Of a stretch of DNA of 43,462 bases, positions 8,474 to 43,382 are shown in pieces. The DNA is from a virus. Each line of letters starts with the position of its first letter. The stretch's first letter is position 1. Made by a program: the position numbers and the translations under genes. The stretch spans positions 1 through 43,462 of IMG/VR virus record IMGVR_UViG_3300035099_000622. One strand, 5' to 3'. The notes under the pieces were generated by a model that was not told the origin of the DNA, ran no database searches, and saw nothing but the letters and a program-made list of their open reading frames with translations.

Positions 8474-8491
8474 TGGCTTCTCCCTTCAGCG

Positions 8492-8850: not shown

Positions 8851-8965
8851 GGCGAAAGAAAGATGTCCCAAGTCGGGGGCCGAAGTAAAGCGAAAAAACA
8901 GCTTGACGCGGGCCTCCGCCGCCGCCAGGCTCCCCCTTGATTTTTCAGTTCTCTCCCCGCCGCAG

Positions 8966-8990: not shown

Positions 8991-8997
8991 TGACCGG

Positions 8998-11202: not shown

Positions 11203-11282
11203 TAAGGCTTTTGCAAATCGGATAGACGTCCATTCCCGAAAGGCTGAATGGCCAGCGCCATCAGCCAAAGGAGCGCCTTTCG

Positions 11283-12386: not shown

Positions 12387-12399
12387 ATCGAAATCAGGC

Positions 12400-12419
12400 C
12401 GCCGGGCTTCGGCCCGGCG
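12400..12419 (+). promoter_or_regulatory. Very stable UUCG-loop hairpin between protease and capsid genes
   Basis: CGCCGGGC, the tetraloop TTCG, then GCCCGGCG. No T-run follows, so it is not a classical terminator. It probably marks an RNA end, a pausing site or a stability element 133 bp before the capsid start, allowing capsid mRNA to differ in abundance from upstream genes. Confidence 0.6.
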
Positions 12420-12551
12420 ACGCTTCGCATGGTCTAGGCAGTTGCGCCACGGCCAGGGGCTGTGAAAGTCAGCTAGGCCAAAAAGACGCGATGGGGCCTT
12501 GGAATGCGATAGTCAGCACAGAATCGCAAACCTATCGAGGAGGCTACCATC

Positions 12552-13967
12552 GTGTCCAAAATCAAGTTCTTGCAAGACTGTGGGCCGAACTGGCCCAAAG
12601 ACGCCGTCGTAGAAAACGACCAGAACGTGCAGCAGGCCTTGGCCGCCGCGGGCCTCGCGAAAGGCGTCGCCTGGGACGACGTGGCGGTCGAGGATGTCGC
12701 CGCCGAGGGCATTCGCCGGGTCATCCAAGAGGCGACGCGCGCTGAATTCACCCGCCTGAACGCCGACCTTGAAAAGCGATTGAGCAAGACAGGCTCGATC
12801 AGCCTCGGGCCGGAGCCGGTCGACAAAGACCCGCGCCGCGGCTGGACAAGTCTGGCCGAATACGCCTATGCGGTCTATTTGGCTGGGATCCCGGGGGCGC
12901 CACGTCAGGCCGCCGAGCGCGTCGCTGACGTTTCCCGCACGGAAGACCTGATCGTCGAAGCGCAACGGCGGCTCGGCACGACACAGAAGGCGGAGATCGC
13001 CTCGCGCCAGGCCGCCCTGAGGGCGCTGCCGGCTGGGACGCTCTCGACCGTGACCGGGCCTGCCGGCGGCTATCTCTTGCCGACCGAGTTCGTGGCCGAG
13101 CTGTGGAAGCCGGTCATCGAGCAAGGGATCATCTACCCCTACGTGCAGAAAGTCCCCACCACCCACATGACCATCGAGTGGCCCGCGATCAACGACACCA
13201 CGCACGCCGCCGGATTGGTCTATGGAGGCGTTGGGGTCTACCGTCGGGCCGAACTGTCCCAAATGACCGCGACCAAACCCGGCTTCGCCACGATGAACCT
13301 GCAACTGACCGAGCAATACGTCTTCGTGAGCGTGCCGAACACGATGCTGCAATTCTCGGCCGTGAGCATCGAACCCCTGTTGACCGAGATCGCCCCGCAA
13401 GCGCTAGCCTGGAAGCTCGAGAGCGAGATTTTCAGCGGCAGCGGCGCTGGACAGCCGTTAGGAATCCTGAACGCCGCGGCCCTGGTCGCCGAGACGCGCA
13501 CCGGCGCGACCATCGTCTGGGACGACATCGTCCGGATGGAGGCGCATGTGCCAAGCCAGTTCGACGGTGACGCCCGCTTCTACCACAACCCGGACTTGCA
13601 CGACGACATTCGCGCGCTCTACGTCAGCGGCGGCGGAAACACCGTGCCGCTCATGGTCGTCACTGGCGGCGGCCCGGCCAAGCCGTTCCAAAACCTGTCG
13701 GGCTACCCGCTGATCCGGACGGAGCATTGCGAGGCGCAGGGCACCAAGGGCGACATATTGCTCGTGTGCCCGAAGCAGTACGTCCTGGCCGAGTACACCG
13801 GCGGGTTGCAAAGCGCCGCGTCGACGCACCTTTACTTCGACTACAACGCGATGGCCTTCCGCTTCGTGTGGTACAACGACGGACGGCCGGTGTGGTTGAG
13901 CAAGCTGACGCCAGAGCACGGCTCGGTCGAAATCAGCCCCTACATCGCCTTGGCGACGGCAGCTTGA
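12552..13967 (+). CDS. HK97-fold major capsid protein
   Basis: Shell protein of the icosahedral head. The start is a GTG with GAGGAGG eight bases upstream. Residues 1-150 form a charged, helical scaffold/delta-like region expected to be removed by the upstream protease. The HK97 fold follows (GGYLLPTEFVAEL near residue 176, the E-loop and P-domain region with VSVPNTMLQFSAVSIEPLLTE, then GSGAGQPLGIL). The late part YPLIRTEHCEAQGTKGDILLVCPKQYVLAEY is characteristic of the A-domain. Its length of 471 residues suits a protein with a fused scaffold. It is flanked by protease and a small virion-like gene. The N-terminal 50 residues (FLQDCGPNWPKDAVVENDQ) resemble a small phage domain also seen alone. 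Confidence 0.93.
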   Translation: MSKIKFLQDCGPNWPKDAVVENDQNVQQALAAAGLAKGVAWDDVAVEDVAAEGIRRVIQEATRAEFTRLNADLEKRLSKTGSISLGPEPVDKDPRRGWTSLAEYAYAVYLAGIPGAPRQAAERVADVSRTEDLIVEAQRRLGTTQKAEIASRQAALRALPAGTLSTVTGPAGGYLLPTEFVAELWKPVIEQGIIYPYVQKVPTTHMTIEWPAINDTTHAAGLVYGGVGVYRRAELSQMTATKPGFATMNLQLTEQYVFVSVPNTMLQFSAVSIEPLLTEIAPQALAWKLESEIFSGSGAGQPLGILNAAALVAETRTGATIVWDDIVRMEAHVPSQFDGDARFYHNPDLHDDIRALYVSGGGNTVPLMVVTGGGPAKPFQNLSGYPLIRTEHCEAQGTKGDILLVCPKQYVLAEYTGGLQSAASTHLYFDYNAMAFRFVWYNDGRPVWLSKLTPEHGSVEISPYIALATAA

Positions 13968-13998
13968 GGCGCGCTGAGGCAAAAGGAGGAGAATTGAA

Positions 13999-14439
13999 AT
14001 GTACCATCCAGTGAAATTCACGGACGATAGCAAGATGCCGGCGCTGATCACGACCGGCGGGATCAACCGCACGCAACTCGCGGCGGCGCAGAACTATGGC
14101 ACGAGCACGTACACCAAGCTTGACATGTACGACAGCGTTTGCGCGGTGGCCATCCTCGACGCGGTCGGCGCGGAGGACACGTTCACCTTGACGTTGCTCC
14201 AAGCGACAAGCGCGGCGGGCGCGGGCGCGAAAGCCTTTGGGACGGCCGCCACAACGACGACCTCGACCGCCGGCACGGTCTTCGCCGTCGCGGAGGTCGC
14301 CCGCAACCTCGACGTCGATGGAGGTTTCTGTTATGTCGGAGCGCGAATCGCCCCAACGACGGGCGACGAGGGACACTACGCGGAAGTCTTGCTGTTCAAG
14401 ACGCATCCACGCGAGCGCAAGTCAAGCATGCCGGCCTAA
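13999..14439 (+). CDS. Small protein after capsid; candidate head decoration protein
   Basis: A 146-residue protein with a strong ribosome site (AAAGGAGGAGAA) before ATG 13999. It is Ala/Thr-rich with many predicted beta strands (TFTLTLLQATSAAGAG, TTTTSTAGTVFAVAEVARNL, GGFCYVGARIAPTTGDEGHYAEVLLF). Position directly after the major capsid and a good translation signal fit a decoration or cement protein made in large amounts. No family is recognised. The YVGARI...LLF ending resembles small virion proteins in HK97-type phages, but this is inference. Confidence 0.6.
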   Translation: MYHPVKFTDDSKMPALITTGGINRTQLAAAQNYGTSTYTKLDMYDSVCAVAILDAVGAEDTFTLTLLQATSAAGAGAKAFGTAATTTTSTAGTVFAVAEVARNLDVDGGFCYVGARIAPTTGDEGHYAEVLLFKTHPRERKSSMPA

Positions 14440-14673
14440 GCGAATGGCGACTCGCGCCTCGATGCTCGACAGGATGGCGAGGTCGAGCGAGCAAAGGGCA
14501 GGCGAAGGCGATTGTCTGCCATAGCCGCCTCGCTTGGATGCGCCGGTTGCGCCCAAGTCGCAGTCGCCCCACAAGCCGCCGTCACAACGGGGCCGAGGGC
14601 GACCGATTGATGGCGGCATTGGTCGAGCGTTGACGGTCTGTCTTGCCACATTGAACTGCGGAGGTGACGAGGA

Positions 14674-15177
14674 ATGGGAAAGGTCAAAATCGTCGCCATT
14701 GCCGGCGCCTGTTGCCTGGCTCTGGCGATTTTCCTGGCGGTAAGACTGAAGCCCGGCCATTCGAGGCAGGCGGTCTTCGCTCCGCAAACCGTCGGGGCGA
14801 TCACGACAAGCTGGGCCTATGGCAGTCCGGCGGCGCTTAGCTGCGTAACAGCAACTTTCACGTCGGACGCGTCAGGGACGGTTGAGGGAATTGTGCCTTA
14901 CGATACCTATGCGGCTGCGAAATATCTTGGCGGCTTGCTCTATCGGGCGACCGTGGCGCCCGCCAGTGGGGCGTTGCGCCCGGACAACCTTTTCGACGTG
15001 ACGCTGTTGGACGTGGATAGCAAGGATGTTTTGCAGGGGCAATTCCAGAATCTGACGAGCGCCACCGCGACGACCGTGAATTTTTCTACGCCAACGGCCT
15101 TCATCGGCCCGCACACGCTGAGCGCAAGCGGGATGGGGAACAAGAAAGAGGCGAGTTTGCGGCTGTACTTTAGATAG
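14674..15177 (+). CDS. Membrane-anchored or exported protein of unknown function
   Basis: A 167-residue protein with an N-terminal hydrophobic segment (VKIVAIAGACCLALAIFLAV) after a basic start, and an external-looking beta-rich domain (TTSWAYGSPAALSCVTATFTS ... RLYFR). GAGGTGACGAGGA precedes the ATG. It is the first of three genes in this operon with export signals. It could be an envelope-targeted protein or a virion protein with a membrane anchor. The upstream 14440-14673 interval shows no convincing gene, only a 26-codon frame at 14444. Confidence 0.55.
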   Translation: MGKVKIVAIAGACCLALAIFLAVRLKPGHSRQAVFAPQTVGAITTSWAYGSPAALSCVTATFTSDASGTVEGIVPYDTYAAAKYLGGLLYRATVAPASGALRPDNLFDVTLLDVDSKDVLQGQFQNLTSATATTVNFSTPTAFIGPHTLSASGMGNKKEASLRLYFR

Positions 15178-15204
15178 GCGTTTTAGGCCGACGTGGAGCG
15201 GAAA

Positions 15205-16890
15205 ATGCGAAAGCGGATCTTTCTCGCCCTCATTCTCTCCATCATTCCCACTTTGCCCGCGATTGCGGCGAGCTTGCCCGGCGAGCTCGTATGGGACATC
15301 CCGACCGACAACGTGGGAACGTCCATCGCCGCCGAGTTGACCATGCGCCTCGCGGTGGGCGAGCAACGCCAATTCCGCGCGCGCCTGACCAGCCGCGGTT
15401 CGGTCATTCCGAACACCCGTTTCGACCTCTACCAATTCATGGTGAAGAACAGCGCGGGTTACACCATCGGCAGCCAAGCGATGACCCCAGAGTCGCCCCC
15501 GAGCGCGGGTTACTTTAGCTGCACCATCAGCTCGACGACGCTCGGCTCGACGGGCTTTTACGCGGCGGTCGTGGCGACGAGCACCTCCGCTGGCTTGCGC
15601 GTCGTGGCCGGCTGGTGGCGGCTCAACTTGACGGGCGTCCTCGACCCCAACCAACTCGCCGCGGGATCGCACGACAACGTAGTCGTCACGACCTTGACGG
15701 CGACGAACGTCTTCACGGACCACTTGTGGGCCGACGACCTTAACCTAACGACCTTCCCCCTGTACGCGCGGCGGGATGGGACGAATCCGCCGACGGCCAA
15801 CTGGGATTTCGCTGGGCGAAACTTGACGGACATTGGCAATCTCAAGACGACAGGGACACTCTACTCGCCCGACCTGATAAGTTCCTTCACGCTCAAGGCC
15901 GATGCGACATCCGTGACGGCCTCGCTCAACAAAAAGGCGAACTTGGCGGGTGGCAACGCCTTCACTGGCAACCAGAGCTTTGGCGGCTACAATCTGACGG
16001 CCATAGGCGCGTTTGCCACGACGGGGAATGCGACGTTGGGCGATTCAAGCGCCGACGAGCACACGATCAATGGCGACGTGCGCGTCACCAGCGGGATCGT
16101 CCTGACGGCGGGCAATAACATCAGGCCAAGTACCAACTCGACTTCTGCTATCAACATCGCGCAGGCGGATGGGACAGACTTTGTAACCTTTGACACGACC
16201 AATAAGAGAGTTGGCATTGGTGGCGTTACTCCTATAACCTCGCTTCATCTTCGTAGGGATCTTGCTTGGACGGCCGTAGAGCAGCTTATTCTTGAGAACA
16301 GCGCTTCGGGGGGTGGTGCGAAGTTCCTATTTCGTGGGGTAAATTCACACGATCAAGCTGCCATTGTTTCTTATGACATCTCCAGCGCGAGAGGCGCTTT
16401 AGGATTTTTCACAACAACCACGCCCTGGAGCGGGAATCCGACCGAGAAGGTGCGGATTGACCCGGATGGCAACGTTGGCGTCGGGACGACCAATCCAGGC
16501 GGCGGAGCTGGCTCTTCCGTGTTGAGCCTTGCCAACAGTTCTGCCACTCCAGCAGCCCTTGCCAACACGACCCACCTCTACTCCAGCGCGGGTGAGGGCT
16601 ATTGGATGGACGCCGCTGGCAACGTCACGTTGCAGACGCCGCACAATCCTGACACTGGCCAGTGGATTTTCTTCTCTGTCAACACCGTGACGAGTCAGGT
16701 TGTGCAGATTGACATGGAACGGCTTGTCACTGACGTGGAGAAGCTGACGGGCAAAAGCTACATGGTGAGAGACCGCGAGAAACTTGGCCCCAAGATGCGC
16801 CAGATCGCCGATGAGCTGTTGCGCAGACCGCCGCCATCAACGGTTGCGCCGACGACCTCGACGGCCTCGACCTTGACGGGAGGCCCATGA
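15205..16890 (+). CDS. Tail-fibre-like protein with signal peptide
   Basis: A 561-residue protein. The N-terminus has a Sec signal (MRKRIFLALILSIIPTLPAIA, likely cut before SLPGEL). Residues 23-145 form a domain repeated in the 23494-23952 protein, with VGEQRQFR and a terminal RVVAGWW. The middle is a repetitive Gly/Thr/Asn-rich shaft (NLTDIGNLKTTGT, NLTAIGAFATTGN). Two copies of a [11 protein letters not shown] motif (KRVGIGGVTP and GNVGVGTTNPGG) follow, as in trimeric fibre proteins. The end is helical (DMERLVTDVEKLTGKSYM), then a Pro/Thr tail. The ATG at 15205 follows GGAG; an in-frame GTG at 15193 is less likely. Its place between head and connector genes and its signal peptide are unusual for a fibre. 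Confidence 0.65.
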   Translation: MRKRIFLALILSIIPTLPAIAASLPGELVWDIPTDNVGTSIAAELTMRLAVGEQRQFRARLTSRGSVIPNTRFDLYQFMVKNSAGYTIGSQAMTPESPPSAGYFSCTISSTTLGSTGFYAAVVATSTSAGLRVVAGWWRLNLTGVLDPNQLAAGSHDNVVVTTLTATNVFTDHLWADDLNLTTFPLYARRDGTNPPTANWDFAGRNLTDIGNLKTTGTLYSPDLISSFTLKADATSVTASLNKKANLAGGNAFTGNQSFGGYNLTAIGAFATTGNATLGDSSADEHTINGDVRVTSGIVLTAGNNIRPSTNSTSAINIAQADGTDFVTFDTTNKRVGIGGVTPITSLHLRRDLAWTAVEQLILENSASGGGAKFLFRGVNSHDQAAIVSYDISSARGALGFFTTTTPWSGNPTEKVRIDPDGNVGVGTTNPGGGAGSSVLSLANSSATPAALANTTHLYSSAGEGYWMDAAGNVTLQTPHNPDTGQWIFFSVNTVTSQVVQIDMERLVTDVEKLTGKSYMVRDREKLGPKMRQIADELLRRPPPSTVAPTTSTASTLTGGP

Positions 16891-16929
16891 CGAGGTCGGC
16901 CTTGATCTCATGAAGGATGGAGTCGAACG

Positions 16930-17187
16930 ATGACGCAAGAGGAGAAAGAGACGCTCAGGCAAACGGTGGAGCTGGCCGTCTTGAAGGCGCTCGACGCCCA
17001 CGTCGAGCGCTACCACCGCGGCTTGCAGAACGGCATCGTCAGCCCGAAGACGCTCGTGGCGGTGGTCTTGGCGCTGGCCGTAGTGTTCGCCGGCCTATTC
17101 GTGAACGTCCTTCAGATGAAGGGACAGGCGATGGAGATCAAGACTCAAAACGCCCTGATTGAAGAGATTCTGCAGGAGCTGTTTTGA
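16930..17187 (+). CDS. Small membrane protein with coiled-coil ends
   Basis: An 85-residue protein: a charged helical N-terminus (TQEEKETLRQTVELAVLKAL), one membrane segment (TLVAVVLALAVVFAGLFVNVL), and a C-terminal helix (MEIKTQNALIEEILQELF). GGATGGAG precedes the ATG. It is followed closely by another small membrane protein; the pair could be holin and regulator or spanin-like, but position within head-tail genes argues for caution. Confidence 0.6.
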   Translation: MTQEEKETLRQTVELAVLKALDAHVERYHRGLQNGIVSPKTLVAVVLALAVVFAGLFVNVLQMKGQAMEIKTQNALIEEILQELF

Positions 17188-17221
17188 TCGGCGAGAAACT
17201 CACGCGAGAGGAGACAGGGAC

Positions 17222-17413
17222 ATGGCGCTAATCAAGTGGCTGCAAGGTAAAAAGACCTACGCCTTGGTCGCGTTGGCCGTCATCGTGTCCGGCTTGCGAG
17301 CGCAGAACCTGATCGACGACGACCTCTACAAGGGGGGCATGGCGCTCTTGGCGATGCTCGGCCTCGGCACGGTCCGTGCGGCCATTGCGAGCGTCGTCCG
17401 CAACGGCCGTTGA
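17222..17413 (+). CDS. Holin-like small membrane protein
   Basis: A 63-residue protein starting MALIKWLQGKKTYALVALAVI, then a Gly-rich second hydrophobic helix (GGMALLAMLGLGTVRAAIASVV) and a basic end. The pattern GKKTY-x-hydrophobic ... LGLGTVRAAIA is common among short phage membrane proteins annotated as holin-like. ATG 17222 follows GGAGACAGGG. The open frame to 17159 overlaps the preceding gene and was not used. The lysis enzymes are about 17 kb away, so the holin role is uncertain. Confidence 0.55.
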   Translation: MALIKWLQGKKTYALVALAVIVSGLRAQNLIDDDLYKGGMALLAMLGLGTVRAAIASVVRNGR

Positions 17414-17437
17414 GACCGCGATGGAGGGACGGAAAGG

Positions 17438-18325
17438 ATGCCCAATCTCGTCACGTTGCAAGAGCTCAAGTCGTGGATCGGCGAGACTGGCACGGGTTAC
17501 GACGCGCCGTTGACTTGCGCGTTACAGGCGGCCTCGGACTGGATTTGCGAGTATGCGGGCCAGGATTTCCTCGCCGCCGAACGCCGCGAACACCGCGACG
17601 GGAATGGGCAACCGTCGCTCTGGTTGCGCCAACGCCCCGTGCAAGACGTGATTTCCGTGCGCGGTCCGACCCGCGTGGACGCCTTGCAAGTCAAGTACGC
17701 GGCGTTCGACAGCGGCATGGGCAACATGGCGACGGTGGAAGTCGAGGATGGCGAGTCGCTCAAGCTGACGACGAGCCTCGACGGAACGCGGAGGGTTGAT
17801 GTCTTGGTCTTCTCAACGTACAAGAACCTTTCGCTCTTGCGCGACGCGATAGAAGGGGTGGCGGGTTGGACTGCGGAGGTCCTCGCGACCGACGATCGCC
17901 AGCAAGAGTCCGCTGAGCTCCTGCCCATGCAGCCGGGCGACGCCTATGGCCAATGGCTCACGCTGTCCACCACCGACCTGCCCATTGACGGCTATCATTG
18001 GGAAAGCTGGGGCGAAATCGTCCGTCGCGACTCAGAGTGGTCGTGGGGGCAGCGCAATTGGACGTTCCGTTACGTCGCTGGCTATGGCATTGCCGGCGAG
18101 CCGGAGGGGAATCGCATCGCGGCATTGCCCGGGCAACTTCGTCTCGCCGCGTTGGAATTGGCCAAGCTGTTGTATTTGCAAAGAAGGCAAGACCCTGACA
18201 TGCGGAGCGAGCATCTAGGCGACTATGGCTACTCACGCGCTGCGGCGGGGGAGCTGGGAACGTCGGGGATGCCGCTTCGCATCGAAAAAATGCTCGCGCC
18301 TTTCACGCGCGTTTTGGACCGCTGA
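17438..18325 (+). CDS. Head-tail connector protein (gp6-like adaptor)
   Basis: A 295-residue protein in the position of the adaptor that docks under the portal ring. The start (NLVTLQELKSWIG, YDAPLTCALQAASDWICEYAGQDF) is the classical opening of phage connector proteins, four helices around a short loop. The second half has beta strands and a C-terminal helix (LPGQLRLAALELAKLLYLQRR) that also recurs in the family. It is longer than the roughly 100-residue HK97 gp6, with a middle beta domain added, as in several related phages. The ATG follows GGAGGGACGGAAAGG. The next gene starts 1 bp after the stop. Confidence 0.82.
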   Translation: MPNLVTLQELKSWIGETGTGYDAPLTCALQAASDWICEYAGQDFLAAERREHRDGNGQPSLWLRQRPVQDVISVRGPTRVDALQVKYAAFDSGMGNMATVEVEDGESLKLTTSLDGTRRVDVLVFSTYKNLSLLRDAIEGVAGWTAEVLATDDRQQESAELLPMQPGDAYGQWLTLSTTDLPIDGYHWESWGEIVRRDSEWSWGQRNWTFRYVAGYGIAGEPEGNRIAALPGQLRLAALELAKLLYLQRRQDPDMRSEHLGDYGYSRAAAGELGTSGMPLRIEKMLAPFTRVLDR

Positions 18326-23493: not shown

Positions 23494-23952
23494 ATGCGAC
23501 ACGCGAAAATCAACCCGCTACTTTTGGTCTGTCTTTTGTCTTGCCCATTCGCCCCTCGCGTTCACGCCGTCTCGCTTCCTGGCGACCTCACGCTGAACGT
23601 GCCGATTGACAACACTGAAACGTCCGCGCCCTGGTCGCTCACGATGCGGTTGGTCGTCGGTGACCAACGGCACATCAGGTTGCCGTTGGTCGAGGCGGGC
23701 AGTCCAGTGAGCAATAGCCGCTTCAGCTCTTACACGCTGGTCTTGAAAAACGCTGACTCGGTGACCCTGACGAGCCGAACGATGGCCAAGGAGACTCCCG
23801 CCGCCGACGGCTATGTGAATTGCACGTTGGCCTCTTCAGACGTCACGTCGGCGGTCAGAACCGCCGCCTTGGTCGCGACAAGTTCGACCGTCGCGTTGCG
23901 GATCGTGGCGGGTTGGTGGAAGGTTGAGGTCCAAGGGATCAAAGAGCCATGA
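23494..23952 (+). CDS. Exported protein paralogous to the N-terminal domain of the 15205 fibre
   Basis: A 152-residue protein with a Sec signal (N-region MRHAKIN, hydrophobic LLLVCLLSCPF, cleavage after VHA). The mature part matches residues 23-145 of the fibre-like protein at 15205: SLPGDLTLNVPIDN against SLPGELVWDIPTDN, then TMRLVVGDQRH, and an identical VAGWW near the end. It is a standalone copy of that domain, so the domain is mobile within this genome. Its stop overlaps the next start. Function unknown; a virion surface or periplasmic role is plausible. Confidence 0.65.
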   Translation: MRHAKINPLLLVCLLSCPFAPRVHAVSLPGDLTLNVPIDNTETSAPWSLTMRLVVGDQRHIRLPLVEAGSPVSNSRFSSYTLVLKNADSVTLTSRTMAKETPAADGYVNCTLASSDVTSAVRTAALVATSSTVALRIVAGWWKVEVQGIKEP

Positions 23953-27200: not shown

Positions 27201-28263
27201 GAGCGCCGACCTGGACGTTGGAACGCATGAGGCCACGATCACCGTTTCCGATCCGAACGCCGGCAACAGTCCGCAGACGATAGCCGTGACCCTGACGGTC
27301 ACGGGCTGGCAGACGCCGCCGCATCCCGCGCCGCTGGCGCCGGTTCTATTGTACGCCTCGCAAGGCGCCCCCGACTACGTTCAGGTGGAATGGTCAACGG
27401 TTACGGGCGTTTCCTTTGTTTCAGGCAACAAGGGCTTCAAGGTCTATCGCCAGACGACCGCAGTTTTGGGCACGGACCCAATGCCGACCTTTGACGTTGG
27501 CCAGGCGGCGCTCATAGCTACGGTGGATCAATACCACCATGACTTTTGGGATCGGGTTGTGGCGGGCCAGCCCCCATCAGTCTGGTGTGGCTATTGGGTG
27601 AAGGCGTTCATCGAGGGGGATGAGAGCGAGTATAGCAATGTCAAGGGCGGGTTCAGCTGGCCGGGAGGCTTGCCGCCCGTCCCCAATCCGCCAACGAATG
27701 TGGGCGTATCGGACGGATGGCATGAAACAATAGTCGTTTCTTGGGATGCGGTCACAGGGGCAGATGGTTATATCGTTTATAAAGCCGTGGCGGAACCATA
27801 CACGTTTTATCCTGATCCGCCGCCGTCGGCGCCGCCAATTTCAAAAGCGAAAAAAATTTTCATGGGCGCCGGGACCTCCATCACCGACTATCAGGTGTTC
27901 GAGCGAATTTCTCCGCTGTATTGGGGTCCTTGGGGTTGGTTTTATTATGGCCCGTATTACTACTACTGGGTGCGTAGTTACAATCAATCTGGGATAAGCG
28001 ATGTCAGCTTGAGCGATTCGGGATACGCTGTGGGAGGTGAATGGTACGTATTAGTAACGCCCACGCCGACGCCAATACCCACGCCGACGCCAACACCCAC
28101 GCCGACGCCGACGCCGACGTCAACGCCGACGCCAACACCCACGCCGACGCCAACGCCGACGCCAACGCCCACGCCCACGCCGACGCCGACGCCGACGTCA
28201 ACGCCGACGCCAACGCCCACGCCCACGCCGACGCCAACACCTTCCGGAAGCCCTCCACCATGA
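24232..28263 (+). CDS. Giant tail-tip protein with BACON, FnIII-like and Thr-Pro stalk
   Basis: A 1343-residue structural protein, the largest gene here. Residues 1-925 are unassigned and include paired cysteines (CKGCGG near 48; CGNC near 423 in a Cys-rich block to about 480) that could bind metal. About 925-1025 is a BACON-type Ig-like domain ([12 protein letters not shown] ... [11 protein letters not shown]). About 1033-1140 and 1146-1270 are two fibronectin III-like domains ([30 protein letters not shown]). About 1275-1340 is a Thr-Pro stalk with a few Ser. BACON and FnIII domains are linked to carbohydrate contact or spacing. It is probably the tail tip or receptor-binding component. There is no clear ribosome site; translation may be coupled to the 23949 gene. 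Its stop overlaps the next start. Confidence 0.8.
28056..28245 (+). repeat. Hexanucleotide ACGCCN repeats encoding the Thr-Pro stalk
   Basis: About thirty near-identical 6-base units (ACGCCG, ACGCCA, ACGCCC, ACACCC) with two ACGTCA interruptions (28118-28123 and 28195-28200) one 77-78-base unit apart. They keep the frame of the tail gene and leave other frames open as well. Length is likely to vary by slippage, changing the stalk length without breaking the frame. Confidence 0.9.
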
Positions 28264-30512
28264 TTGAACCCATTCCAATTCTAACGACGCTCTACGTTGA
28301 TCCCGACCCCGCCCGCTGGCGTTACCGCGACCTCGACGAGTGGATAAAGCATTGCCTCAAGGTTGCCGGCCGCAAACGATTGGTATGCGTAGAATTCGTG
28401 CCAGACGCATTTAGAGACTGGTTGCTAAAAGAAGGCCATGAGATCATCGTCGAAGGAAAGGATTGTGGTCCGAGCCGGCCTCGAATGGCGGCTATGCTTG
28501 GAAAGGCACTCGAATCGCTTTCCAAATCGGAAAAGCCACCGGACTGCGTTTGGGTGATAGAAAATGACGCTTGCGTCTCGGCTGAAACCTTGGCCGCCGT
28601 CGAGGGCCTTTTCAAGGCCTTGCCCAAGGAAGCGGCGGCGGTCGAATTGCGTGCGATTGACGAGACCGGGAAAACGGAGTTCCCATGCGTGAGGAGATTC
28701 CCATCGCGGCCGTGGGAAAAAAGACCAATGAACCCGTTTCCAATCTCGCACGCCTGTTGGTCCGCCTCCCTATGGCGCATGGCCGCCTTGAGGCAAGTCG
28801 ATTTTTCCCAGCTTCCGCCGTTGAACCAATCCGACATCCAGGCCAGCGCTCAGTTGAAGGCGAAAGGCTGGTGTTTCTACGGGATCGCGTCGGCGACCTA
28901 CGTTCACAGGTCGCATGGCTCTTACGCCCGCGGGGAAGACTACCACCGCGATCCGACGATTGAGAAACCGCTGCGACTGAACCTTGGCTGCGGCGCCTTC
29001 TACAAACCGGGTTACGTCAACGTTGACGTGCGCGAGGAACTCGACCAACTAGAGCGGCGAGAAATAAAAGCCGACCTCCTGGCTGACGCGACTTGCGGGC
29101 TTGACCAATTCATAGGTCGTTGCGATGAAATCTACGCCGGCCACGTCCTTGAGCATCTTGAGAATCCGCTGGCCGCCTTGCGCTATTGGCTGCGACTCTT
29201 GAAGCCAGGGGTGGGCCGAATTCTCGTCGTGATCCCCGACTCCGCGAAAGCCATCGCCGACAACAATTTGGAGCAGCTCAAAGCGCATATCGGCCTTTAC
29301 CTGCTTGATTCGTCGAAACAACCGACGCCCGCCGACCACCTGCAAATCTATTGGCTGGGCCGCTTGCGCAGTGAAATGGAACGAGCCGGTTTTGCCGACC
29401 TGCGGGAAGTTGACATTCAAAAAGAAGATCGGCTTGCATCCAAGGCCAAATGTCAAAGCGCCTTGGAGGCCAGACGGCCAAGCGCGCCGGAAGTGAAAAA
29501 GACGGCATTCGTCCTTGACTGGCCGGACAAAAGCAAGGGCAGCATTGAAAATCTCAAACGAAGTTTGACCCAAGCCGGCTGGCGGGTTCGAAGTTTCATC
29601 CGCGATGGCGCGTGGTGGAACGAGGCGGTCAAAACGCTGCGAGAAAAGCGACCGGACTATTTCATCGCCTTTCAGCGGCTTTACGGCTTCGACAAAGCCG
29701 TCGCCGACCAGCTCCGTTCAAGCCGCATCAAAACGCTGTTTTTCGATTTCGGGATTGGCTGCGGGCGCAGCCACTATGGAACTGTCATCGCCGACCCTCT
29801 TGGCGAGGGCGCGGCTTCCGAGATTTCGATCCGCGGCATGGACGCCATCCTTCGGGATCGCCATTGGCGCAATTTGGCTGAAAGCCAGCTTGACAACGTC
29901 GACCGACTTTCTGCGGATCTTCACGAGAAGGCCAGTTCCATCGCGCTGGAGGGGATGCCCAAAGACTACTGGCTTTTACTATTGCAGCGCTCCGGGGAAA
30001 TGCACCTATGCTGCGACAGTCAGTTCCGCCAGTCTGACAAATTGGCTGAGGCCCTGATGACGTTGGCGGCGGATTCCGCAATCAACCAATTCATTGCGAT
30101 AAAGCCGCATCCCATGGACGCGAAGTGGGAATGGTCCGGCGAGCAGCGTTCGATGAATCACTGGATTTTGCCTGCCGGTGGTTTTGACGCTGAAAGCGAT
30201 GCTCACTTATTGCGATTGATTGCGGACGCCAGAGCGGTCATTAGCGTCAACTCAACTACCATTTTCCTTGCCATGCTCTTGGGCAAGCCGGTTTTGCAGC
30301 TAGGCCGCGGCTGGGCGAGCGGCAACAAGGTCGTGACGGAAGCCAAGCTCGACCGCTCTCTTTTTGGCAAGCCGCCGAATTTCGACAGCGAACGCCGACG
30401 TTGGTTTTTGGCCCTAATGTTGGCCCGCCAAATCGGGGAGAACGATTTGGCCAACGTCGAGAAGGCGATGGGGTTCATCCATCGTTTCTACCCCGAGGGG
30501 AACGCGATCTAA
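28260..30512 (+). CDS. Three-domain glycosyltransferase-methyltransferase protein (A-M-B)
   Basis: A 750-residue protein. Domain A (1-232) starts [17 protein letters not shown] and carries WVIENDA (about 97-103), a DxD-like acidic site as in GT-A enzymes. Domain M (237-400) is a class I SAM methyltransferase ([29 protein letters not shown]). Domain B (412-750) resembles capsule-polysaccharide glycosyltransferases of GT-B shape (VLDWPD, IAIKPHP near 614, [21 protein letters not shown]). The ATG overlaps the tail gene stop (ATGA), so it is coupled to the Thr-Pro-rich tail protein. I infer that it transfers and methylates sugars on the tail or on host-surface glycans. Reading frames through the upstream repeat are open, but ATG 28260 is the sensible start. 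Confidence 0.7.
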
Positions 30513-31195
30513 TGCGGCAGATTCCTATCATCACCACGGTCTACATCCCATCGCCCAGCCGTGAGCGCTATCGAAACACGTCCGATCTCGTCAAGCGATG
30601 CGTCGCGGCGGGCATCGGCCCCCGGCTGTTGGCGATAGACAAAGCGCCAGAGGAGTTCAGGCTTTGGGCTGGGGGCGCCGGGCATCGGCTCGTCACGCTT
30701 GAGGCTGGTAAACCTCCACGGATGACCAGGCTGTTGCAGGAGGCTCTGGCCCTCGTCCCTGAAGGAAGCGAATGGGTCTGGACAGTCGAGCAAGATGCGC
30801 TACTCGACGAGAGCGTCGCCGCCAAAATGGAATCCATCATGGCCGGCCTGCCGTTGGAAGTCGCAAGCCTGACGGCTCGACCAGTTGACGAGGACGGTAG
30901 AGACGTCGCGCCACACATCTTTGGAAGCTGGACTGAGAAATCCATCGCAGGCCACTATTTGGGGCGCGGGGAGTTGCTGCGGATTCCTTTCGCGCCTTTC
31001 CTCGCGACGCTGTGGCGGCTCGCGGCACTGCGCAACATGGACTGGTCGCACGTTCCGCCTTTTGTCTGCGCTGACCAGGTCTTGGGGCGGACTCTGAAGA
31101 CGCAAGGCCTCGTTTTGCTCGGCCACGCCGAGTTGAAAGTCTTGCACTATCCGAGGTCGTCGTACTTGAGCAATCGAATGGCGGGGAAGGATTGA
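30512..31195 (+). CDS. Stand-alone A-domain protein (GT-A-like glycosyltransferase)
   Basis: A 227-residue protein homologous over its whole length to domain A of its two neighbours: PIITTVYIPSPSRERYR, PPRMTRLLQEAL, WVWTVEQDALLDES (about residue 88), ASLTARPVDEDG, then ATLWRLAALRNMDWSHVPPF. The acidic VEQDA fits the DxD-like metal site. It starts one base inside the previous stop (TAATG), so translation is coupled. A third copy is in 32967-34724. The substrate is unknown. Confidence 0.65.
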   Translation: MRQIPIITTVYIPSPSRERYRNTSDLVKRCVAAGIGPRLLAIDKAPEEFRLWAGGAGHRLVTLEAGKPPRMTRLLQEALALVPEGSEWVWTVEQDALLDESVAAKMESIMAGLPLEVASLTARPVDEDGRDVAPHIFGSWTEKSIAGHYLGRGELLRIPFAPFLATLWRLAALRNMDWSHVPPFVCADQVLGRTLKTQGLVLLGHAELKVLHYPRSSYLSNRMAGKD

Positions 31196-31199
31196 AGCA

Positions 31200-31376
31200 A
31201 TGTCGTCAGAACCCGATCCGAATTGGCCAGAATTCACGGTGGTTGCCGAAAGCGACGTTTGGATTGAGCGGGGGACGGGGGAAATCTACGTCAAGCAATC
31301 GGCGATTGACAACCTCTTCGCCGACGATGGACTCTATTGTTTCAGGATCACCGGCTATCCGATTGCCGGTCTATGA
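31200..31376 (+). CDS. Small acidic protein (58 residues)
   Basis: A short frame, MSSEPDPNWPEFTVVAESDV..., with plausible composition (VWIERGTGEIYVKQSAI, LYCFRITGYPIAGL), filling the gap between the A-domain gene and the next structural gene. GGGGAAGG lies upstream. It is not recognised; it may be a small accessory of the glycosylation or tail proteins. Confidence 0.45.
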   Translation: MSSEPDPNWPEFTVVAESDVWIERGTGEIYVKQSAIDNLFADDGLYCFRITGYPIAGL

Positions 31377-31441
31377 GGCGACACAATGCCCCGTAAAAAC
31401 GTATTAGAGGCCCGTGGTAGGCTTTTGCAGGAGAAGGTAGT

Positions 31442-32866
31442 ATGAGTGGCCTACCCCCGATAGAAGTCATGCGCCAGCGCGTAAGGGCCATCGAGCAGGC
31501 CACCACCAAACTGTATGGCGTCGGCTCGCTGCCCGATTGGGTTCGCGGCCAAGGGCGACACATCAGCAGCGTTGGCGACAACCCGAATTGGGAGGATTGT
31601 TTCCCCAGCACTTGGGACACGGACATACCGACCATATTGGAAACCAATGTGAGTGGCGCGGACGCCTACGGTTTCGTTCCGGGCATATGTCCCAATGGCC
31701 ATTCATGGTATGAAAAAACATGGGACGGATGGACTCTGGGCAATTGGGTCGCCCCCGCCGACAACGATGGCAACCTGCTCTTTCAGTCGGGCGTGCCCAA
31801 CTTCGTGCTTGGCGGAACGTTCAATGGAAGGCGACGCGGTCTTTACGAAAACAACGGCCCATACTCTATCCAAAGTCCAGCCGCAAATTGGAAATACTGG
31901 TTGATGTCCGACCCCTACATGGACAGCCCCCCGGATGTTGACATGCCTCCCGATTCCACGCACAAGGAAATCACGCGTCGCCAACTTTGGGGTGCGGAAA
32001 GGCCCGTCGGCCACGCGAACGATTTCGCCGTGCAGCGCGTTGACAGCGGCGGTTATGCGGACGGTTTCGACTCGGCCATCGGCAACGTTTGTGAGGCTGA
32101 AGGCCCGAATTTCCAGCCGAATGTGTCGAGACGTTTCAAGGGCGTCTGTCAAATTGGCACCCCGTTCCCCTTCAACGTCGGCCCGCCGCCTCGCGCTGGC
32201 GCCCAGGTCTTGCTCGCGTTGGCGAAGATGACGTTCCTAAAGCTTCTGATCACCACCACGCGCATCCATTACCGCTGCACAGCGGATTGGCAGGTCCACG
32301 AGGGCATTCCACAAGGTTGGACATGGAACACCCCTGAAATCTCGGAGTACGAGGAGTCGCCGCCCAAGCACGAGGGCACGGTCGGCTTCGCCGTCATCGG
32401 CATCAAACGCCATCCGCTTTGGGGTCAGGCATTCGACGTCCTCACAACCATTAACCCGCCAGTGTCGGTTTTTATGCGGGAGGGCGAGAGTCGTTGGGTT
32501 GATTTGACCCAGGCCGTCGCCGCGGTCTGGGTAAACTGGACAGGCAAGGGTTACGCGAGCTTCGCGTTGATTCCCTACGATTCCACGATGTCCTACATGC
32601 TTACGGCTTCACAATCCTGGGAAAACAGCGAGATGCTCGCCCGTCTGTGGCCGCGGATCAATTGGACGGCGAAACGAAGTACCGATCCGAATCAAGTCTA
32701 TGGCGCTTTTTGGGTGGACTACGAGGTCACGACCAAGCTGATACAATACACGTTCGACGAGCCGAATCAGGCCATTCAAGATGGGCCTTACGTGTCGTTT
32801 CAATTGCCGGCGGGGACGGTTGACAGACTGCTTTCCTATGCTGACTATCCCAGCCTTGTGCCCTAG
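31442..32866 (+). CDS. Structural-type protein of unknown function in the glycosylation cassette
   Basis: A 474-residue Trp/Gly/Pro-rich protein (GVGSLPDWVRGQGRHISSVGDN, TWDGWTLGNWVAPADNDGNLL, PNFVLGGTFNGRRRG), with repeated aromatic blocks and few cysteines. AGGAGAAGG precedes the ATG. Its composition resembles phage tail-spike or receptor-binding proteins. It sits between glycosyltransferase genes, so it could be another substrate or a carbohydrate-binding spike. The family is not recognised. Confidence 0.6.
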   Translation: MSGLPPIEVMRQRVRAIEQATTKLYGVGSLPDWVRGQGRHISSVGDNPNWEDCFPSTWDTDIPTILETNVSGADAYGFVPGICPNGHSWYEKTWDGWTLGNWVAPADNDGNLLFQSGVPNFVLGGTFNGRRRGLYENNGPYSIQSPAANWKYWLMSDPYMDSPPDVDMPPDSTHKEITRRQLWGAERPVGHANDFAVQRVDSGGYADGFDSAIGNVCEAEGPNFQPNVSRRFKGVCQIGTPFPFNVGPPPRAGAQVLLALAKMTFLKLLITTTRIHYRCTADWQVHEGIPQGWTWNTPEISEYEESPPKHEGTVGFAVIGIKRHPLWGQAFDVLTTINPPVSVFMREGESRWVDLTQAVAAVWVNWTGKGYASFALIPYDSTMSYMLTASQSWENSEMLARLWPRINWTAKRSTDPNQVYGAFWVDYEVTTKLIQYTFDEPNQAIQDGPYVSFQLPAGTVDRLLSYADYPSLVP

Positions 32867-32880
32867 AAAGGCGACGTGAA

Positions 32881-32970
32881 ATGGCAGGTGAAAAGACGAT
32901 GAATAGAACAAGAAAAACGCGAAAAGCAAAAAAACCGAGAAGGCCGCGTCGGCCCCGCAAACCAAGATGA
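32881..32970 (+). CDS. Tiny, extremely basic peptide (29 residues)
   Basis: MAGEKTMNRTRKTRKAKKPR followed by RPRRPRKPR, with a net charge around +15. The ATG follows AGGCGACGTGAA, and the stop overlaps the next gene's ATG (ATGA). It may be a coupling leader for the downstream B-A glycosyltransferase or a nucleic-acid or membrane-binding peptide. Confidence 0.4.
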   Translation: MAGEKTMNRTRKTRKAKKPRRPRRPRKPR

Positions 32971-34724
32971 ACCGATCCGTCCTCATCCTCGATTGGCCGC
33001 CTTATTCCGGCAATGCCATGGCCGCCTTGCGCGAAGGCCTCGGCCAAAGCGGATATGAAACGTTGTGTTTCAGCCGCAGGGAAGGCGGCTGGCGCGAAAA
33101 GATCGACGAGCTTCTGGACTCCCGATTGCCTGACTATTTCCTCTGCTTCCGCCGCCTGTTCAACCCGATAGACCAGGTGGTCGTGGACAAGATTCGCCGA
33201 CTTGGGGTTCGCACGCTCTTCTTCGATTTCGGCGTCCAGCCAGGGACGCTCTTGTTTGACCCTTGGGGCGACGGTCCGGCGAGTGAAATCGCCCTGAAAG
33301 GGATGGACGCGCTCCTTCGAAACCCCGCGCAAGCACGCTGGGCGGCAGAGCGGGTTTGCGAGCTGGTTCGCTGGAGGGAGTCGCTTCTGCACGAGATGGG
33401 TCGGGCCGCCCCGTTGAAGGGCGTCCCGCCCAACTTCACATTGTTGTTGCTTCCGTGCAAGACCGAGCTGCGCGTCTGGCACGACGCCCGTCGGCGCGAG
33501 TGGTGCGAGCCGCTCGCCATAGCTCGAGGGTTGACCGCGCAGTTCGAGGGCCGAGGCGCCGGCCACCTCCTCGTCAAGCCGCACCCGCGTGATTGCACCT
33601 GGTGGTGGGAGGGGCCGGCGGAGGGCGCGCGTTGGCGCGTATTGCCACGAACGAGATTCGGCCAAGAGGGTGGCGGGTCGCTCGCCTGGCTGCTTCGGGA
33701 GGCGGACAGGGTGGTCGCGTTCGGCTCAAGGGCGGTGCTGGCGCCGTTGGCGCTCAACAAACGGGTCGCGGCGTTGAGTCGGGGCTGGTGGTCTGGCAAC
33801 GAAGTTTTGCTGGAGCTCGACCGTTTCGACCAAGTCTTCGCGCCTTGGCCAGATTTCGACCTGGCGCGCCGGGGGCTTTTTTTGTCGTTGATTTTTTCCC
33901 GTCAATGGCCGACGTCGAAAATGTCGGAGGCGACGGGAGTTGAAAAAGTGCTCTCGTCCTTCGAGGCCGTGGCGGATTGGCCGCCCTTGCGACCGTTGAG
34001 CGTGGCGCGAAAACGACCGCCAGAAAACCTGTCGCGACACCTTGACTCGCCAATCGTCACCACGATCGGTTGTCCGCTCGACCCTAAACAGTGGCGTTAC
34101 CCGAATCTTGAGAGGCGAATCGCGGAGAACGTCCTGGCGACGCGATGGCCACGTCAAATCTGCGTTGACCAATGCTCGACCACGTTGCGTCAATGGCTGG
34201 AGTCGCAAGGCCACGACTTTTGCGTCGAGGGCGCTTCCTTCGGAGGCGAGCCGCCGCGCATGGCGAAGATGCTTGGCGTGGCCATCCGCCAAATGCACGG
34301 CCCGACCATTTGGACGGTGGAGCAAGACGCCCGACTGACGGCGGAGGTCAAACGCGCCGCCGAGCTCCTTTTCGCGGAACTCGCCGACGACGTCGCGGCG
34401 CTCGAATTGCGGGCCGTCGACGAAGGCGGGGAGACTTGCCATCCTTCAATTGCTTCCTGGTGGCGCGAGGAGAAGGTGGTTGGCGGGTTGTTGAATCTCA
34501 AATTCGCCTCGTGGTCCGCCACGCTTTGGCGGCGGGAGGGCTTAATGCAAGTCGACTTCGACAGTCTTCCGCCGCTTCATCGTTCGGACATCGAGGCTGG
34601 CAAACAACTGGCGCAGAGGGGATGGCGATTCAAAGGCGCGTGGAACCTGACTTACGTCCACACGCCCCACAGTTCCAACCCGAAGGACACCGATGACCAA
34701 AGAGAGACAAATCGAATGGATTAG
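32967..34724 (+). CDS. Two-domain glycosyltransferase-like protein (B-A order)
   Basis: A 585-residue protein with the same domains as the 28260 product but permuted and lacking the methyltransferase. The B domain comes first (1-345): VLILDWPPYSGN, LLVKPHPRDC (near 204), VVAFGSRAVLAPLALNKRVAALSRGWWSGN. The A domain follows (359-575): SPIVTTIGCPLDPKQWRYPN, WTVEQDARLT (near 448), ASWSATLWRREGLMQVDFDSLPPLHRSD. Clear paralogy covers both halves. The start overlaps the basic peptide's stop, and the end overlaps the endolysin gene by 32 bases. A role in building or attaching the same glycan as the A-M-B protein is inferred. Confidence 0.7.
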   Translation: MNRSVLILDWPPYSGNAMAALREGLGQSGYETLCFSRREGGWREKIDELLDSRLPDYFLCFRRLFNPIDQVVVDKIRRLGVRTLFFDFGVQPGTLLFDPWGDGPASEIALKGMDALLRNPAQARWAAERVCELVRWRESLLHEMGRAAPLKGVPPNFTLLLLPCKTELRVWHDARRREWCEPLAIARGLTAQFEGRGAGHLLVKPHPRDCTWWWEGPAEGARWRVLPRTRFGQEGGGSLAWLLREADRVVAFGSRAVLAPLALNKRVAALSRGWWSGNEVLLELDRFDQVFAPWPDFDLARRGLFLSLIFSRQWPTSKMSEATGVEKVLSSFEAVADWPPLRPLSVARKRPPENLSRHLDSPIVTTIGCPLDPKQWRYPNLERRIAENVLATRWPRQICVDQCSTTLRQWLESQGHDFCVEGASFGGEPPRMAKMLGVAIRQMHGPTIWTVEQDARLTAEVKRAAELLFAELADDVAALELRAVDEGGETCHPSIASWWREEKVVGGLLNLKFASWSATLWRREGLMQVDFDSLPPLHRSDIEAGKQLAQRGWRFKGAWNLTYVHTPHSSNPKDTDDQRETNRMD

Positions 34725-35283
34725 GAGCCAGTTGCCCGACGCGCTGGCCGCCGAAGAGCTCTACCAGACGCCCGCTAACGTCCAGGTCGCCATCGCTGGG
34801 CACGAATCCAACTGGGGATCTTCGAAAGTCGCGCGCGAGAAGAACAACCTGCACGGGATAATGCGAGGGCTTGAACATCGCAAGTTCGACAGTCCGGCGC
34901 AAAGCTACCTTTTTTGCGCCAAGCTCTTGGCTCAAGACCCGCGTTATGCGCTGGCTCGTAAAAAAGTCTTTGAATTCGAGGCCACCGGAGCGCCGGCTTG
35001 GCAGGTTGAGCGCAAGTGGATCGAATCCGTCGCTTCAATGTATCTGACGGGTCGGGAAAGGGAGGACGTTGGACGCGGTTCAACGAGCCAAAACCAGCTT
35101 GGTAGGATACCACGCTTCGTAAGAAAGTGGCGGTTCTTGGCACGACTTCTTGTCCTTCTGAGGCAAAAAATCTCTTTCTTGGACAGGCTCATACCCAACG
35201 ACTTGAGGTTGGACCGGGCCGTGAACGATTGGATCGCAGACACGCTGTTGATCCACAAACGAGTTTTGGAGGCGCGGAAATGA
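34693..35283 (+). CDS. Endolysin-like glucosaminidase
   Basis: A 196-residue peptidoglycan hydrolase of the FlgJ/endo-beta-N-acetylglucosaminidase fold. AIAGHESNWGSSKVAREKNNLHGI (catalytic Glu38) and the following SPAQSYLFCAKLLAQ, with late WIESVASMYLT, match the family. The C-terminal 60 residues are basic and amphipathic (RKWRFLARLLVLLRQKIS) and may bind the membrane or LPS. There is no signal peptide, so release would need a holin or spontaneous entry. The start overlaps the glycosyltransferase gene by 32 bases and follows GAAGG. It could instead be a tail-associated hydrolase. Confidence 0.8.
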   Translation: MTKERQIEWIRSQLPDALAAEELYQTPANVQVAIAGHESNWGSSKVAREKNNLHGIMRGLEHRKFDSPAQSYLFCAKLLAQDPRYALARKKVFEFEATGAPAWQVERKWIESVASMYLTGREREDVGRGSTSQNQLGRIPRFVRKWRFLARLLVLLRQKISFLDRLIPNDLRLDRAVNDWIADTLLIHKRVLEARK

Positions 35284-36227
35284 CCAGAAGAGAACGACGG
35301 GTCCTCAGACGACGAGCCAGACGGCTGCACCGAACCGTGGAAGGGGTCCTCGGTTTTTGCCTTGGCGAGAAAATCAAGGCTGGCAAACCGACGGGCCAGG
35401 AGGCGCTCGTCTTTTTCGTCAGACGCAAACTGCCCTTGGGCGGCCCGGAAAGCCCAACCGTCATCCTGCCCCAAAGCATCGGCTCGATCCCGACGGACGT
35501 GGTCGAGGTCGGCGACCTGCGGGCGCAATCCTTCACCGAGCGGATGAGGCCCGCGCCCGCGGGCGCGAGCGTCGGCCACTTCAAGGTGACGGCCGGGACG
35601 CTGGGGCTGTGGGTCGCGCCAATGGACGATGGCAAGGCGTTACTTTTGGCGAGCTGCCGCCACGTCCTCGCGCCAGAGGGTTTCAACTATGGCGACGCGA
35701 TCCTCCAGCCAGGCGTTTACGATGGCGGCGGATTCGCCCCCCAAGACGACACGGTCGCGACGCTCTCCTTCGCGGCGCCCCTTCATTACGACCGCCCGTT
35801 GGTCCGGCTGTTGCGCGTATTCGGCTTCCCATTGCGCAACGAGGTGGATTTCGCCCTCGCGACGCCCTTGCGCCAATCTGACGCGACTCGCGAGATCGTC
35901 GGACGCGCCGGCTACCCGCGGCGAGTCCGCGACGTTGAGTCGGGTGAGAGAGTTTTCAAGGTGGGCCGCACGACGGAGTTCACGCAAGGGGCTTGCCGAT
36001 ACGTCGGCGCGACGCTGACGGTTGGATACGACGCGGGGCCGGCGACCTTCGAGAACGTCAACGTGTACGCGCCGTTCTCGGAAGGCGGGGATTCTGGCTC
36101 GGCCATCTTGTCGCAGGTGGACCAAGGCCAGACTTTGCACGACTTCCTTTTCGCGGGGTCGGAGCAGGTGACCGTGGGGTTCCGCGCCGCCGCCGCGTTT
36201 GAAAGGGCGGGGGTGCGTTTGCCATGA
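35280..36227 (+). CDS. Trypsin-like serine protease
   Basis: A 315-residue chymotrypsin-fold protease. The triad is visible as CRHV (His128), VDFALATP (Asp190) and EGGDSGSAI (Ser272), with a GRTTEFTQG strand before the Ser as in HtrA/V8-like enzymes. The first 30 residues are very basic (TRRERRVLRRRARRLHR). There is no signal peptide. GGAGG precedes the ATG, which overlaps the endolysin stop (ATGA). Such proteases are uncommon in phages outside prohead maturation, and this genome already has a U35 protease. Lysis, virion processing or host-factor cleavage are possible; the neighbours favour lysis or envelope targets. Confidence 0.85.
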   Translation: MTRRERRVLRRRARRLHRTVEGVLGFCLGEKIKAGKPTGQEALVFFVRRKLPLGGPESPTVILPQSIGSIPTDVVEVGDLRAQSFTERMRPAPAGASVGHFKVTAGTLGLWVAPMDDGKALLLASCRHVLAPEGFNYGDAILQPGVYDGGGFAPQDDTVATLSFAAPLHYDRPLVRLLRVFGFPLRNEVDFALATPLRQSDATREIVGRAGYPRRVRDVESGERVFKVGRTTEFTQGACRYVGATLTVGYDAGPATFENVNVYAPFSEGGDSGSAILSQVDQGQTLHDFLFAGSEQVTVGFRAAAAFERAGVRLP

Positions 36228-42942: not shown

Positions 42943-43382
42943 TGGACATCACAATAGAAGAAATCGAAAGCTACTTGGAAAAGGCGAAGAAAGCCGGCGC
43001 CTGTGCGGAAGTTCTTTGTGAGATTGGCAATCTGCTGAAGACTGGAGGAGTTGACGCGGTGCTCTCAAATACGGAATGTCCATATTGGGCGTATTGGTAT
43101 AGTTTCAACGTTCTCGAAGGCAGGTGGCCGCAGGCCGAACCCATCATCGTCACCGACGCGGATTGCGCGTCTTGGTATAGCTCCCACGTTATCAGAGGCA
43201 GGTGGCCGCAGGCCGAACCTATCATCGCCAAGGATGCCAAACTAGCGTATTTCTATAGCCGGAACATTATCAAGGGCAGGTGGCCAGAGGCTGAGAGCAC
43301 CATTGCCGCAGACGCTGAATGGGCAGACAGATACAACCGCGACATTTTAGGCCTAGAGGTGTCAGGAGGAGACAAAGGATGA
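42942..43382 (+). CDS. Protein of tandem GRWPQAE repeats
   Basis: A 146-residue protein with three clear and one partial copies of a 26-residue unit, carrying Y-S, then GRWPQAEPII or GRWPEAEST, then DA. Repeats of this kind (R/K-WPEAE blocks) occur in phage and other viral proteins of unknown function. The N-terminal 40 residues are helical (DITIEEIESYLEKAKKAG). GGAAAAGGAG precedes the ATG. The stop overlaps the next start. Confidence 0.7.
   Translation: MDITIEEIESYLEKAKKAGACAEVLCEIGNLLKTGGVDAVLSNTECPYWAYWYSFNVLEGRWPQAEPIIVTDADCASWYSSHVIRGRWPQAEPIIAKDAKLAYFYSRNIIKGRWPEAESTIAADAEWADRYNRDILGLEVSGGDKG
43040..43310 (+). repeat. Near-identical 78-bp coding repeats
   Basis: The GGCAGGTGGCCGCAGGCCGAACC block occurs at about 43120 and 43198 with almost the same sequence (a shorter, diverged copy is at 43276), one 78-base step apart. 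The DNA identity suggests a recent tandem duplication. Confidence 0.75.

Follow-up and report, generated by a model that had tools for sequence, protein, structure and literature searches.

A cassette of three proteins in the tail operon of an unclassified phage

The window analyzed here, meaning the whole stretch of 43,462 bases, is the complete IMG/VR entry IMGVR_UViG_3300035099_000622. It derives from an environmental, unclassified tailed phage and encodes a portal, a major capsid protein, a head-tail adaptor, a tape-measure-like protein and tail proteins. Because the portal and capsid proteins share at most about 25–32% identity with those of known phages, the phage stands isolated among them. 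The cassette under study comprises three plus-strand proteins that lie between a long tail protein and a lysin (Table 1). We designate their domains A, M and B, so that the proteins read A-M-B, A and B-A; their coordinates and reading frames are those of the original prediction.

Table 1. Positions of the cassette, its domains and the flanking genes in the window
Feature	Position	Strand	Details
Probable tail-tip/tail protein, 1343 aa	24232..28263	+	BACON-like domain, FN3-like region, C-terminal Pro-Thr repeat; candidate glycosylation target
Tandem repeat encoding the C-terminal (PT)n tail of the 1343-aa protein	28056..28238	+	residues 1276–1343
A-M-B protein, 750 aa	28260..30512	+	
Domain A1, GT-A type (predicted)	28260..28964	+	N-terminus of A-M-B; WVIENDA 28551–28571; His within YVHRS 28899–28913
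Domain M, class I SAM methyltransferase (predicted)	28965..29495	+	LNLGCG motif 28977–28994; Pfam Methyltransf_23 E 1.5e-7
Domain B1, KpsS/Capsule_synth-like GT-B (predicted)	29496..30512	+	KPHP 30102–30113; QRSGE 29985–29999, QxxxD in the family
Domain A2, stand-alone GT-A protein (predicted), 227 aa	30512..31195	+	TAATG junction with the preceding gene; AF2 model
58-aa ORF	31200..31376	+	starts 5 bases past A2
474-aa protein within the cassette	31442..32866	+	no Pfam or PHROG match
B-A protein, 585 aa	32967..34724	+	
Domain B2	32967..34046	+	N-terminus of B-A; KPHP 33576–33587; PCKTE 33453–33467 replaces QxxxD; GSRA replaces NST
Domain A3, GT-A type (predicted)	34047..34724	+	C-terminus of B-A; WTVEQDA 34311–34331; AF2 model
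Lysin	34693..35283		

Overlapping start and stop codons link part of this block. The A-M-B gene starts at 28260 on an ATGA junction with the gene for the 1343-aa tail protein, and a TAATG at 30510 joins the A2 gene to the A-M-B gene. The 58-aa and 474-aa ORFs separate the A2 gene from the B-A gene, which begins about 100 bases downstream of the 474-aa ORF with no overlap coupling upstream and whose 3′ end overlaps the lysin gene by 32 bases. The coupling to tail genes through ATGA and TAATG overlaps that had been predicted is therefore present at the first two genes and absent upstream of B-A.

Several other features of the record were noted. Past the lysin, in the tail and lysis block, positions 35127–36227 encode a protease-like protein (PHROG 20754, E 1e-36; Peptidase_S64 just under cut-off). 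Two proteins of the structural block (15205–16890 and 23494–23952) share a 145-residue N-terminal domain at 42% identity, and both start with an apparent signal peptide, an uncommon feature in structural proteins of phages. On the minus strand, 4106–6824 holds three DNA methylase ORFs (two N6_N4_Mtase, one D12 class), one of which is short and matches only the end of its profile.

Three copies of domain A and two of domain B

The copies A1, A2 and A3 align pairwise by blastp with E-values of 4e-33, 9e-52 and 1e-33 (31–39% identity over 217–228 columns), and B1 aligns with B2 at E 3e-56 (34% identity over 332 columns); matches between A and B are at the level of chance. A six-frame profile scan of the window recovers exactly three copies of A and two of B, the next best E-values being 0.21 and 0.28. 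The two kinds of search agree, and bear out the prediction of two paralogous domains present in three and two copies.

Along the operon the domains run A-M-(B|A)-x-(B-A), where x is the 474-aa ORF. There are thus two instances of the unit B-then-A: the TAATG divides one of them between two genes, and a linker of about 30 residues fuses the other. Judged from this arrangement, one duplication together with one gene fission or fusion would explain the domain order. The locus had been read as the product of both duplication and permutation; the duplication is clear, and we dropped permutation as a necessary step, B preceding A in the identical order both times. With only three copies of A and no outgroup, a tree does not settle their branching.

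Domain A resembles GT-A glycosyltransferases

No useful match to A was found in Pfam, NCBIfam or PHROG, PDB sequence searches with A returned nothing, and the GT2 profile PF00535 is silent across the window, with positive controls. We consequently describe A as GT-A-like and leave it outside any named family.

AF2 models were built on 3–4 sequences, and model confidence for A is moderate: the stand-alone A2 protein has a mean pLDDT of 63 and a pTM of 0.66, and in the model of the 585-aa B-A protein (mean pLDDT 49) the core of A3 lies mostly at 60–78. Both models match cellulose synthase BcsA (VIA), with Z 14.3 over 174 residues at 3.2 Å for A2 and Z 13.3 over 162 residues at 3.0 Å for A3; many other GT-A entries match as well. 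In Foldseek, the best solved structures for A3 are of GpgS, and a mannosyltransferase and TarS appear in the top 32; viral matches to the A model include many GT2-type proteins (E 1e-6). All three copies share, without variation, an ExD motif (ENDA or EQDA) and a C-terminal His. In the A2 model the ExD ends core strand 88–93 and corresponds to the acidic, DxD-like metal/nucleotide motif after the fourth strand, as would be expected, together with the His, of a metal-dependent GT-A enzyme.

The same models bear on whether A might instead be a nucleotidyltransferase of the same Rossmann-type superfamily. The A2 model also gives Z 12–13 to GlmU and IspD. Enzymes of the GlmU/IspD type carry an N-terminal glycine-rich NTP signature, however, and A begins IPIxTTxY and lacks it; moreover, the top matches of both A models are glycosyltransferases, and the C-terminal His of A is of the GT-A type. 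We consider a nucleotidyltransferase very unlikely. The assignment of A to the GT-A fold class of glycosyltransferases is well supported by the predicted structures of two of its copies, in keeping with the original prediction that A is a glycosyltransferase.

Domain B is related to capsule synthesis glycosyltransferases

B1 matches the Pfam family Capsule_synth (PF05159) at 34.6 bits against a cut-off of 20, a result repeated in a second search with controls. B2 alone has no PF05159 match, yet is 34% identical to B1. A profile of B aligns with three KpsS-like plasmid proteins (hhalign E 6.1e-9) over the C-terminal, CMP-binding (Rossmann) half, and the KPHP of both B copies aligns with KEHP, KAHP and KHHP of the KpsS-like proteins. 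This motif, (K/R)xHP, is the CMP-binding element of retaining Kdo transferases and of sialyltransferases (PMC12887879). PDB sequence searches with B returned nothing, and where the AF2 model of the B-A protein covers B, pLDDT is mostly under 50. From family and motif matches, the identification of B as a KpsS/Capsule_synth-type, putative GT-B relative is well supported at the level of enzyme class, and the predicted likeness of B to capsule glycosyltransferases is upheld. A structure comparison without a glycosyltransferase fold in A or B would have spoken against the original prediction; A has a predicted GT-A fold and B falls in the KpsS/Capsule_synth family, and this condition did not overturn the prediction.

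B shares with KpsS, KpsC, WbbB and KrkA (PF05159 and relatives; GT99, GT107, GT118 and GT140) the (K/R)xHP motif and the match over the C-terminal Rossmann half, and KpsC, like the phage fusions, carries two glycosyltransferase modules in one chain. The phage domains differ from Capsule_synth types in having a shorter N-terminal half, in being fused to GT-A and methyltransferase domains, and in residing in a phage. They also differ at the catalytic site. In KpsC, the Asp of QxxxD forms a covalent sugar adduct and is the nucleophile (PMC10148158). In a gapless alignment to QLDSD and QVYND, the site reads QRSGE in B1 and PCKTE in B2, placing Glu in both copies where the family has the nucleophilic Asp. 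B1 keeps the Gln, the KxHP and the NST motif; B2 has no Gln and carries GSRA in place of NST. Because the Asp of QxxxD is replaced, we do not file B as a retaining beta-Kdo transferase (GT99, GT107 or GT140), though it would operate in a similar way. B would bring a predicted capsule-type CMP-sugar transferase into a phage, no further example having turned up in 50,697 phage records, and the change from Asp to Glu at its catalytic position poses a sharp question of enzymology.

With both Asp and Gln lost, B2 could be inactive or follow a different chemistry. A broader version of this idea, in which some or all of the copies are no longer enzymes and instead bind carbohydrate or take part in assembly, B2 having lost its catalytic activity, draws on the PxxxE and GSRA that replace QxxxD and NST in B2. 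It sits poorly with the retention of ExD and His in A1–A3 and of Q, KxHP and NST in B1, and with a Glu at the nucleophile position that is common to two B copies only 34% identical, and we judge it decidedly unlikely.

A methyltransferase joins the two domains, with parallels in other viruses

Between A1 and B1 lies domain M, with the SAM motif LNLGCG and matches to Methyltransf_23 (31.7 bits against a cut-off of 27) and, at its cut-off, Methyltransf_11; a PDB sequence search gave a weak match only. By these profile matches M is classed as a class I SAM methyltransferase, located between A and B in one protein as had been predicted. A sugar methyltransferase coupled to the sugar-transfer domains is a fair reading of M; the original prediction had the cassette assemble a methylated glycan.

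The closest functional parallel, by analogy, is A064R of the chlorovirus PBCV-1, in which two glycosyltransferase domains and a SAM methyltransferase, each assayed, occupy one chain and build a methylated virion glycan (PMC9614988). A064R, and also A111/114R, resemble the phage cassette as viral multidomain proteins that build a methylated sugar end on a virion protein. The likeness is one of function: PBCV-1 is a eukaryotic algal virus, the product is an N-glycan of the capsid protein, the domain order is GT-GT-methyltransferase, and there is no KpsS-type domain. Among phages, the glycosyltransferases of the mycobacteriophages Che8 (gp110), Corndog (gp38) and Myrna glycosylate capsid and tail subunits, C-terminally, and the available excerpts of these reports describe no KpsS-type domain or duplicated set (PMC12619734, PMC12363180).

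The locus had been put forward as a system not previously described. This is true of the exact set, while the GT-GT-methyltransferase of PBCV-1 and the virion glycosyltransferases of mycobacteriophages were already known. Virus-made methylated glycans are familiar in general, and what is new is these enzyme families and this set: an orphan GT-A domain, a KpsS-like domain in which the nucleophile is altered, and the duplication and fusion of these two with a methyltransferase in the tail operon of a phage.

Searches for relatives

Neither A nor B has a sequence match in 50,697 phage records. For A, searches of phage, plasmid, IMG/VR and sampled bacterial sequences turned up no relative. Peptide patterns from the A alignment, applied to IMG/VR and GTDB genomes, gave chance hits only, as did a DNA pattern for WTVEQDA and patterns of the invariant positions, which recover all three copies in the window; HMM searches found no relative of A in samples from two bacterial phyla, with 379 and 68 genomes respectively. 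Such pattern searches need near-exact short words, and the bacterial phylum samples are small. For B, phages yielded no relative and neither did IMG/VR by pattern, leaving the distant KpsS-like plasmid proteins.

The portal protein yielded no relatives from IMG/VR; the capsid alignment did retrieve related records. None of the 37 capsid-related phage records contains A, B or PF05159, and the A-M-B, A and B-A triple, which the original prediction suggested seeking in other phages, was found neither in these records nor among the 50,697. Two of the 37, G018 (IMGVR_UViG_3300009506_000095) and G026, have GT2 genes (PF00535) over cut-off. In G026, a GT2 gene and a GT-B gene lie among structural genes. 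G018 encodes Ser-Pro-repeat proteins, the last of them ATGA-joined to a GT2 gene that opens a cassette of GT2, methyltransferase, sulfotransferase and radical SAM genes; it is the sole record with such repeats among 82 loci scanned.

G018 resembles our phage in being capsid-related and in its layout, with Ser-Pro-repeat proteins directly followed by an ATGA-coupled GT2 gene and a glycosyltransferase and methyltransferase cassette, and differs in its canonical GT2 (PF00535) domains, its sulfotransferases and radical SAM enzymes, and its lack of A and B. The pattern of repeat plus cassette comes from two phages and was recognized in retrospect. Were it general, glycosylated structural proteins of phages, and the enzymes that act on them, could be found by a simple genomic rule. 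Viewed by itself, the G018 region (C1:17000–36500, locus positions 527–17867), with several GT2, two sulfotransferase, methyltransferase and radical SAM genes after the Ser-Pro-repeat structural proteins, is possibly a sulfated or methylated virion glycan system.

A proposed role in glycosylating the virion

The gene upstream of the cassette follows a tape-measure-like gene, and its 1343-aa product matches Pfam BACON_2 (E 6e-5, just under cut-off) and a PHROG major tail protein segment (E 3.8e-5). Of the last 68 residues of the protein, 66 are P, T or S, including 30 Thr. As a separate observation, no stop codon interrupts the A-M-B frame within the Pro-Thr repeat, and the frame consequently extends upstream across all of it (28041–28260); slippage at this place could join the tail protein and the glycosyltransferase into one chain. 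We set such a frameshift fusion aside: the upstream extension is due solely to the lack of a stop in the repeat, and A-M-B has its own ATG and a plausible ribosome-binding site.

It is about an even call, in our estimation, that the three proteins form a glycan assembly set of the phage, expressed with the tail genes, that glycosylates a virion protein, possibly at the Pro/Thr tail. In mycobacteriophages, capsid and tail-tube subunits are reported to bear glycans at their C-termini (PMC12619734); together with the context in G018 and G026, this suggests as acceptor a virion protein, perhaps through the Pro-Thr tail. Position in a tail operon does not by itself prove that the virion is the target, and the searches found no relatives in which linkage of the cassette could be seen to be conserved.

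In the proposed scheme, A would act as a metal-dependent GT-A enzyme on a nucleotide-diphosphate sugar (UDP, GDP or dTDP type), its ExD and C-terminal His binding metal and nucleotide, and B as a GT-B transferase of the KpsS/Capsule_synth group whose KPHP would hold a CMP-sugar (Kdo or another ulosonic acid). Expressed late, A and B would transfer sugars in the cytoplasm from host nucleotide sugars; the CMP-sugar synthetase family PF02348 has no match in the window, hence the proposal that donors come from the host. M would methylate the growing or the finished glycan. The acceptor would most likely be a virion protein encoded in this operon, with the Pro-Thr tail of the 1343-aa protein as lead candidate, and the product a short, acidic, methylated glycan that might cap or shield the tail or change its binding. 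The domain identities and copy numbers, the predicted fold of A, the families of B and M and the gene layout come from the analysis, and to these the scheme adds inferred donors, order of addition, methylation site, acceptor and benefit.

The cassette might alternatively alter a host surface polysaccharide (capsule or LPS), for example blocking superinfection, as seroconverting phages do. The family of B builds capsule and LPS linkers, and A resembles polysaccharide glycosyltransferases such as cellulose synthase. The genes, however, are embedded in the late tail-lysis block, from tail tip to lysin, which better suits virion assembly than lysogenic conversion. Moreover, the three proteins have no strong hydrophobic segment (highest 19-residue hydropathy 1.45, no likely membrane span), unlike Gtr-type enzymes; this is as expected of cytoplasmic enzymes acting in assembly, not of membrane-bound seroconversion enzymes. 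Profiles of the Gtr-type set (GtrA flippase, GtrB bactoprenol glycosyltransferase, membrane-bound GtrC) match none of the cassette proteins, in a record that may be a fragment. We regard action on the host surface as fairly unlikely.

Glycosylation or hypermodification of phage DNA is a further alternative. The family of B uses CMP-ulosonates, for which we know of no precedent on DNA. The cassette sits among tail genes, well away from the DNA methylases at 4106–6824, and no base hydroxylation gene was recognized among the ORFs scanned. Although phage glycosyltransferases that modify DNA are known (cited in PMC12619734) and the window also encodes DNA methylases, we find this role highly improbable.

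Returning to glycosylation of the virion, a stronger form of the proposal would hold that A and B are new glycosyltransferase families, that B has exchanged its nucleophile from Asp to Glu, that the phage places a methylated ulosonate glycan on its own Pro-Thr tail, and that phages more widely pair Ser/Thr-Pro-repeat structural proteins with ATGA-coupled glycan cassettes. Taken as a whole, this combination seems to us somewhat unlikely. Few phage glycosyltransferases have a known protein target, and the locus offers a compact, testable set with a candidate acceptor nearby.

Two further tandem repeats were observed in the window. One, of 78 bases in about 2.5 copies (43084–43285), lies within a coding ORF close to where the record ends; the other, of 24 bases in about six imperfect copies (7267–7399), lies inside a minus-strand ORF (6821–7852) with no family match.
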